From the IMG/VR virus record IMGVR_UViG_3300027969_003137, positions 1 through 64,000 of that record: 64,000 bases of DNA, one strand, 5' to 3'. The notes below the pieces were generated by a model. It did no database searches and had not been told where the DNA came from. It was given only the letters and a program-made list of their open reading frames with translations. Of the stretch, positions 27,845 to 29,428 are shown piece after piece. Position numbers and translations under genes: made by a program. The first letter of the stretch is position 1. The number at the start of each line of letters is the position of its first letter. The stretch is from a virus.

Positions 27845-27873
27845 TTGCTATTTAATTATAGACCAACTATACT
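27845..27873 (+). promoter_or_regulatory. probable sigma70 promoter of the tRNA-like gene
   Basis: TTGCTA (4 of 6) at 27845-27850, 17-nt spacer, TATACT (5 of 6) at 27868-27873. The predicted start, 7 nt after the -10, is 27880, the first base of the tRNA-like gene. Confidence 0.6.
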
Positions 27874-27879
27874 ATACTT

Positions 27880-27990
27880 GTGGTCGTGAGTGGAATTGGC
27901 AGACCTCCCGCTTGGCCCATAGCCAAGAGTGGGGACGGGACAAAGTCGTAGACAGAGTCTTTGTAGGTTCGAAACCTACCGACCATACCA
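27880..27990 (+). tRNA. unusual 111-nt tRNA-like gene, anticodon unresolved
   Basis: Ends are fully tRNA-like: acceptor GTGGTCG / CGACCAT (one G-T pair), discriminator A with encoded CCA, T-arm GTAGG-TTCGAAA-CCTAC (5 bp), and a D-loop ATTGGCAGA with the GG pair. The middle is about 24 nt too long even for a class II tRNA. Two readings compete: a stem CTTGG/CCAAG with a 7-nt loop CCCATAG (anticodon CAT, but C at position 33), or a stem TCCCG/CGGGA with a 25-nt loop beginning CTTGG (U33, anticodon TGG). A further stem CAAAG/CTTTG (27941-27963) looks like a long variable arm. Confidence 0.6.
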
Positions 27991-28053: not shown

Positions 28054-28245
28054 ATGTCAACAACAGTAGAACAACTAAAAGCAGACTTCGAAGCATTCTT
28101 AGCAGAGGACGCAAAATTCACAGCTGGCAACGGTGCAGCAGGAACTCGTGCTCGCAAAGCTCTTCAAGAAGTTGCCAAGGGTGTTAAAGCTCGTCGCAAC
28201 GAAATCACAGAAGAAAAGAACGCTCGCAAAGAAGCCAAGGCCTAA
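28054..28245 (+). CDS. small histone H1/Hc1-like protein
   Basis: 63 residues, with AAGGAAACA ribosome-binding site. N-terminal helix VEQLKADFEAFLAEDAKFTA then GNGAAGTRARKALQEVAKGV and a Lys/Arg/Ala tail (KNARKEAKA). The Gly-Asn-x-Ala-Ala-Gly-Thr-Arg-Ala-Arg segment resembles bacterial/phage Hc1-like histone proteins that bind DNA; whether it does here is not shown. Located right after the tRNA-like gene and 4 nt upstream of the next gene. A strong ribosome-binding site and small size suggest high expression. Confidence 0.65.
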   Translation: MSTTVEQLKADFEAFLAEDAKFTAGNGAAGTRARKALQEVAKGVKARRNEITEEKNARKEAKA

Positions 28246-28762: not shown

Positions 28763-29428
28763 ATGAATGTTAAACTTTTATCATACAGCCAACCCGCAGT
28801 CGAATTTCGAGATATGGGCATCGAAGATGCGCAGGAACTCATTGCGTATTGCGCCCGTGTCAGCAATCCTGCCAATCAACTCAACACAGACACATCCGAA
28901 AAACTCATCAGATACTTGGTCAAGCACCAACACTGGAGCCCACTTGAAATGGTCTCCGCCTGTATCGAAATCACCACCACCCGAGATATTGCCCGACAGA
29001 TCCTTAGACACAGAAGTTTCTCATTCCAAGAGTTCAGTCAGCGATATGCTGACCCTACTAAAGACCTGTCGTTTGTATGTAGAGAAGCACGGCTCCAAGA
29101 TCCAAAAAACAGACAGAACAGCGTCCCAGTCGATGATCAACTCTTACAAAATGAATGGTATCGTGCTCAACAACGAGTTATCTATGCTGCCAAACGAGAA
29201 TACGAATGGGCCATTGCCAACGGCATAGCCAAGGAACAGGCTCGTGCTGTGCTGCCGGAAGGTCTTACAGAAAGTCGCCTGTATATGAATGGCACACTGC
29301 GTTCATGGGTACACTTCATTGAACTACGTTCGGCCAATGGCACACAACTAGAGCATCAGGAAGTTGCTAAGGCCTGTGCCAAAGTAATTGCAGAAATATT
29401 TCCATTGGCAGAAAGTCTTGTCAAATGA
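28763..29428 (+). CDS. thyX: flavin-dependent thymidylate synthase ThyX
   Basis: 221 residues. The ThyX signature RHRSFSFQEFSQRY (residues 82-95) matches RHRxxSxxExSxRY, and RSANGTQLEHQEVAKAC near residue 190 is the usual C-terminal dUMP/FAD-binding helix. ThyX converts dUMP to dTMP using FAD, NADPH and methylenetetrahydrofolate, supplying dTTP for phage DNA. Length is typical. The coding sequence is visibly richer in G+C than its neighbours (long runs of C-rich codons around 28900-29010), hinting at later acquisition. ATGA overlap with next gene. Confidence 0.95.
   Translation: MNVKLLSYSQPAVEFRDMGIEDAQELIAYCARVSNPANQLNTDTSEKLIRYLVKHQHWSPLEMVSACIEITTTRDIARQILRHRSFSFQEFSQRYADPTKDLSFVCREARLQDPKNRQNSVPVDDQLLQNEWYRAQQRVIYAAKREYEWAIANGIAKEQARAVLPEGLTESRLYMNGTLRSWVHFIELRSANGTQLEHQEVAKACAKVIAEIFPLAESLVK

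Follow-up and report, generated by a model that had tools for sequence, protein, structure and literature searches.

The tRNA-like domain of tmRNA has tRNA-like ends without an anticodon, and the same holds for the phage element described here which, unlike tmRNA, has no message part, lacking the tag-coding part and the pseudoknots. Bacterial class II tRNA-Leu shares with the element the L-shape, A73, the A15/U48/A20a set, a long variable arm, and CCA. The element differs from class II tRNA-Leu in that its anticodon-position arm appears unable to decode, its variable arm consists of two parts, an extra base precedes the 2-bp D-stem, the start is fixed at base 1, and the score falls below the Rfam tRNA cut-off. 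Bacterial tRNA-Tyr is also a class II tRNA. The tRNA-Tyr of phages T5 and T6, set against the tRNA-targeting defences retron-Eco7 and Septu, is likewise phage-borne and tRNA-shaped and could be a decoy or a supplement; these are, however, complete decoding tRNAs, whereas the element could not replace a lost tRNA and could only serve as bait.

Human tRNA-like RNAs provide another point of comparison. As described in the available part of PMC11693755, mascRNA and menRNA (MALAT1/NEAT1) keep the elbow and have lost the anticodon, combining an acceptor, a T-arm, and the D-loop GG with a non-decoding stem in the anticodon position; human mascRNA is released by RNase P and RNase Z, receives CCA, and is reported in that part of the source not to be aminoacylated. 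The element likewise combines tRNA-like ends with a stem that does not decode at the place of the anticodon arm. Unlike mascRNA, the phage RNA retains leucine-identity nucleotides, has CCA encoded in most members, and seems to have its start at base 1. The reason phages carry tRNAs at all is termed long-debated in the accessible text of PMC10264068. A conserved non-decoding RNA of tRNA shape separates codon supply from every other proposed tRNA role and, with codon supply set aside, the other roles become open to direct testing, since bait, carrier, and processing functions are all that is left. Among bacterial viruses, it would also exemplify a tRNA-like RNA with a promoter-set 5' end.

The window analyzed here comprises 64,000 nucleotides (positions 1 to 64,000) of the 87.5-kb virus record IMGVR_UViG_3300027969_003137. 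The first-pass annotation, made from the letters of this window, described a tRNA-like gene with perfect ends, an abnormal anticodon region, and a promoter placed so that transcription would start at its first base. The ends are indeed canonical, with a 7-bp acceptor stem, discriminator A, CCA, T-arm, D-loop GG, and elbow nucleotides all present in the sequence, and the promoter has the proposed placement (Table 1). On balance, we consider it probable that this is a phage non-coding RNA, a non-decoding mimic of tRNA-Leu that would act in trans, possibly in leucylated form, as a decoy or carrier. The window also contains ordinary phage genes for tRNA-Gly(gcc) and tRNA-Arg(tct), each encoding its CCA (1078-1230), and a ThyX-type thymidylate synthase gene (Pfam Thy1; 28763-29428) located two genes downstream of the Hc1 gene.

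Table 1. Parts of the tRNA-Leu-like element and adjacent features in the window
Feature	Position	Strand	Details
Non-decoding tRNA-Leu-like RNA	27880..27990	+	111 nt; covariance model R1, 127.4 bits; covariation
Sigma70-type promoter	27845..27873	+	-35 TTGCTA 27845-27850, 17-nt spacer, -10 TATACT 27868-27873
Gap from -10 box end to base 27880			6 nt
Acceptor stem, 5' strand	27880..27886	+	7 bp, pairs with 27980-27986
D-arm region	27889..27906	+	AG/CU 2-bp stem; equivalents of A14 A15, G18 G19, A20a, A21
Central arm, anticodon position	27907..27933	+	Loop CCATA 27917-27921; stem covaries; apex varies among relatives
Two-part variable arm	27937..27961	+	GGGAC/GTCTT and GTC-GTA-GAC
T-arm	27963..27979	+	5 bp, loop TTCGAAA
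Acceptor 3' strand and 3' end	27980..27990	+	Discriminator A73 = 27987; encoded CCA 27988-27990
Hc1 (histone H1-like) ORF	28054..28245	+	63 aa; Pfam PF07432, E 5.6e-14

Relatives of the element were collected through the adjacent gene and through its own sequence, with overlapping records in the two sets. Among the best 80 of the 449 viral contigs with a relative of the Hc1 ORF, 78 have a complete element upstream of Hc1, and the other two contigs end within 60 nt. A 16-base pattern from the 5' end of the element matched at least 120 viral stretches; for the 119 loci among the matches listed (L095-L213), a regular expression recovered the full element in 107, the remaining 12 comprising 3 loci truncated at contig ends and 9 chance matches within other sequence. 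Hc1 adjoins the element in 98 of these 107 loci; five others lie where the contig ends, in three a different ORF comes first, and one (L176) is without Hc1, which was not found anywhere in its 76-kb record. An additional, acceptor-independent search of viral contigs required the promoter and the D-arm and forced the acceptor start to GC. Each of the 18 loci obtained has the remainder of the structure (65-106 bits with R1, the covariance model built from the element alignment), and their acceptor stems include GCAGACG/CGTCTGT, GCGACCG/CGGTCGT, GCGGCTG/CAGCCGT, and GCGGTCG/CGACTGC; the same search of viral contigs with a GA or GG acceptor start found none.

The 85 distinct members that were aligned are 94-115 nt long; they share ancestry, and counts across them are not independent. 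All members found come from uncultured viruses. A blastn search against named phages yielded no full match, only short weak matches, partly to ordinary tRNAs, plus the Hc1 gene of S-SRM01; in the bacterial and archaeal genome collection, the patterns used found no member, the two bacterial matches being chance ones with no R1 score. No described match was recognized in the literature searched, most subscription journals lying outside its coverage. According to the first-pass annotation, relatives with a normal 85-90 nt version would reveal an insertion artefact or a sequencing error. No such normal decoding version was found, and the shortest relatives (L176, L307, L317, L322) are without the decoding arm altogether. 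Sequencing or assembly error is ruled out by dozens of distinct relatives in separate contigs.

Single-sequence folding of the window element is unremarkable (z -1.38) and uninformative, so that comparative evidence from the relatives carries the case. The first alignment included 43 distinct sequences with that of the window, aligned by sequence only, and was scored against a named structure of 31 pairs: standard pairs make up 92.9% of the pair cells, 14 pairs show both-side changes compared to a shuffled mean of 9.0, and no measure was reached by any of 500 shuffles. The second alignment, of 85 distinct sequences with the GC-acceptor loci added, is biased in favour of the model to which it was fitted; here, both-side changes occur in 24 of the 31 pairs, and 95.4% of the cells are paired, compared to 83.3% when shuffled and 27-50% when slid. 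In these 85 sequences, all cells of the acceptor stem and the T-arm are paired (100% each), and both-side changes affect six of the seven acceptor pairs and six of the eight variable-arm pairs. Given these patterns, the acceptor stem, the T-arm, the two-part variable arm, and the central hairpin are held by compensatory changes, and the element is not an isolated oddity but a member of an RNA family in phages. Unaided, RNAalifold recovered the acceptor, variable, and T stems but missed the central arm because its length and register differ between groups.

The element escapes the standard programs for tRNA annotation that were applied here. In the window, ARAGORN called the two normal tRNAs and did not call the element, nor did it call a tRNA in any of the 80 regions upstream of the best-80 Hc1 relatives; the exception is a member of the wider set, L317, called as tRNA-Gly(gcc). 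The window element scores 25.1 bits with the Rfam tRNA family (RF00005), below the gathering cut-off of 29, a threshold reached by none of the elements of 20 relatives and by 57 true tRNA matches in the same loci. With R1, the next match in the window after the element is the true tRNA-Arg, at 20.5 bits. Across 46 virus records of up to 353 kb, R1 found exactly one strong match (95-129 bits) in 45, the record without one representing a chance pattern match, whereas the true tRNAs in these 46 records scored at most 43.8 bits. A piece of tmRNA was rejected as a candidate: Rfam matched no tmRNA anywhere in the window, the element included, and ARAGORN likewise found none there.

For comparison with true phage tRNAs, we used 12 stretches (from 11 element-bearing records and L277) containing 120 ARAGORN tRNAs, of which 21 are Leu. 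The top 16 R1 matches in these stretches comprise 15 called by ARAGORN, every one as tRNA-Leu, and one that is uncalled. In all 71 parsed elements, U8, A14, A15, G18, G19, A20a, A21, U48, U54, U55, C56, A58, and A73 are invariant, and the single unparsed element (of 72) keeps the same positions by eye; many of these nucleotides are common to tRNAs in general. The quartet A15/U48/A20a/A73 is present in 71 of 71 elements and 20 of 20 phage tRNA-Leu, compared to 11 of 86 other phage tRNAs. Judged by these sequence features, the element descends from class II tRNA-Leu. The 3' end is CCA in 70 of the 71 parsed elements and CCG in one; in the wider set, encoded CCA is not universal (TAA in L319, L320, L322, and L323; CAA in L315; CCG in L307).

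The leucine identity set given in the accessible part of PMC9976931 (A73, A15-U48, A20a, G18G19, U8:A14, and U54:A58) is complete in 71 of 71 elements. The same part of that source states that charging by Escherichia coli LeuRS needs A73 and contacts in the D- and T-loops, and that E. coli tRNA-Leu without the anticodon arm and the variable arm is still charged. These rules make charging of the element plausible, and, by analogy, the host leucyl-tRNA synthetase may charge it even though it would be unable to decode. The D-stem consists of 2 bp with one extra base ahead of the stem, which may misplace the leucine contacts. Leu/Phe-transferase (PF03588) and class I synthetase (PF00133), enzymes that could use a leucyl carrier, were not found in 13 records, which are possibly fragments, and this absence counts against the carrier role.

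The central arm keeps its stem, whereas its apical loop varies in both sequence and size. Trimmed folding of the 71 elements, in which some folds are approximate, gave GNRA tetraloops in at least 24 and CAT-bearing loops in 20, with CUA, CTATA, TTTTT, and TTAG among the other apical loops. Only a small remnant hairpin occupies the anticodon position in L176, L307, and L317, and L322, otherwise nearly identical to its sister L319, lacks the hairpin. The 7-nt anticodon loop with U33 typical of canonical tRNAs is absent, position 33 being C in the window and the loops of relatives having other sizes or the GNRA form. Since the apex is not conserved, the comparison indicates that it does not function as an anticodon. 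A functional tRNA that has CAU as its anticodon and an atypical variable region would account for the CCCATAG loop of the window and for the canonical CTCATAG loop of two relatives (L002, L004); it is nevertheless very improbable in view of C33 in the window and of the CUA loops, GNRA tetraloops, or small remnant hairpin in other relatives, and for the family as a whole, the loop variation already refutes a working tRNA-Met(CAU).

The first-pass annotation had drawn two conflicting anticodon arms. The hairpin with loop CCATA stands, being supported by the relatives; the TCCCG/CGGGA arm has no such support, as CGGGA has its G-run paired within the variable arm. The latter pairing also bears on another of its proposals, a tRNA gene interrupted by a small removable intron or insertion, to which the location of the arm at the usual intron position of tRNAs and the drawable outer stem TCCCG/CGGGA would lend themselves. 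The stem of the arm covaries, excision of the hairpin restores no constant anticodon in the relatives, and no Rfam intron family matched at the element; an interrupted gene is rejected as very improbable. The annotation's non-decoding option is the one that the variable apical loops of the relatives support. Its suggestion of a packaging or processing role gained no support, and a decoy role is possible. We regard as least probable of all a tRNA-Leu pseudogene in decay that travels with a mobile promoter-Hc1 module: the clear tRNA-Leu ancestry and the lost decoding arm would be expected of such a relic, but the compensatory stem changes, the invariance of the elbow, A73, and T-loop across many distinct sequences, and at least four further acceptor-stem sequences among the members would not.

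Of 96 distinct loci, 95 have a TATAAT-like -10 box ending exactly 6 nt upstream of base 1, and the last one has it at 7 nt, whereas none of 119 true phage tRNAs has this promoter geometry. By promoter rules, the first transcribed base is most likely base 1 of the acceptor stem. With such a start, no RNase P step is needed, and the geometry suggests that the 5' end is probably fixed by initiation rather than by RNase P. Host tRNA 3' maturation would probably generate the A73/CCA terminus, a step that would separate the element from the downstream Hc1 or other RNA.

In the 78 Hc1 loci, CCA lies 19-63 nt ahead of the Hc1 start codon, so that the element and Hc1 most likely form one transcript. 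The element usually heads an Hc1 operon; elsewhere, it precedes tRNA arrays or genes of other kinds, and one locus has it on its own. A position ahead of a coding gene also fits a cis-acting 5' leader, that is, a stable tRNA-like cap that would remain unreleased and protect the mRNA or tune translation of Hc1-type genes. The element starts at +1 and precedes Hc1 closely in these loci, the next ORF begins 12-30 nt past it in L306, L308, L317, L319, and L321, and a coding gene directly follows in most loci. However, a leader has no need for A73 and CCA, and the arrangement is not constant: in G048, two genes, one an uncharacterized ORF and the other desaturase-like by eye, separate the element from Hc1; in L307, L312, L314, and L318, the element heads tRNA arrays; and in L313, the following gene lies on the opposite strand, and the element's own strand has no ORF of at least 60 aa for ~775 nt. 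We consider a leader rather unlikely. Of the 12 downstream regions of the GC-acceptor set that were viewed by ORF, only that of L315 encodes Hc1. In L306, L308, L317, and L321, the element is followed by a conserved small secreted-looking protein with an MKK-type start and an HE-V/R-x-HCFQG motif.

The Hc1 genes of a cyanophage-like clade (L214-L293, nearest to that of Synechococcus phage S-SRM01) have the element in none of 80 loci. A regulator specific to Hc1 was rejected on this ground and because the element also occurs without adjacent Hc1; the element is not a switch for Hc1 but a portable gene for a non-coding RNA. In the cyanophage-like clade (e.g., L277, L281, and L245), Hc1 directly precedes a tRNA array, so that the tRNA-like RNA of the window's clade and the tRNAs of this clade lie on opposite sides of Hc1.

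The preferred reading, a non-decoding tRNA-Leu mimic acting in trans, can be put as a sequence of putative steps. A relative of class II tRNA-Leu would have had its decoding arm swapped for a dispensable hairpin, and its own sigma70-type promoter would start transcription at acceptor base 1. The L-shape elbow and the bacterial leucine-identity nucleotides are kept, so that host LeuRS may charge the RNA. In trans, it could be a bait for host enzymes or for tRNA-targeting defences whose recognition involves the acceptor, elbow, or variable arm; alternatively, it could be a non-ribosomal leucyl carrier. The narrower proposal of a leucine-accepting RNA that has shed its decoding end, is charged by host LeuRS, acts in trans as bait for tRNA-attacking host enzymes or as leucyl donor, and has its 5' end set by initiation is tentative, and we rate it as possible.

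Further RNA matches lie on other viral contigs. ARAGORN called a candidate permuted tmRNA with the tag ANDEQFLMVA in L319 (6552-7061), and L313 contains an Rfam selenocysteine tRNA match (1438-1522; 50.2 bits against a cut-off of 47). A group I intron match at the Rfam cut-off lies near a phage tRNA array in L307 (983-1186, minus strand). Phage tRNAs called as Glu(ctc) and Ile(tat), 92-99 nt in length and with variable regions of unusual length, lie in L299 (897-995), L297 (2747-2838), and L298 (709-800).
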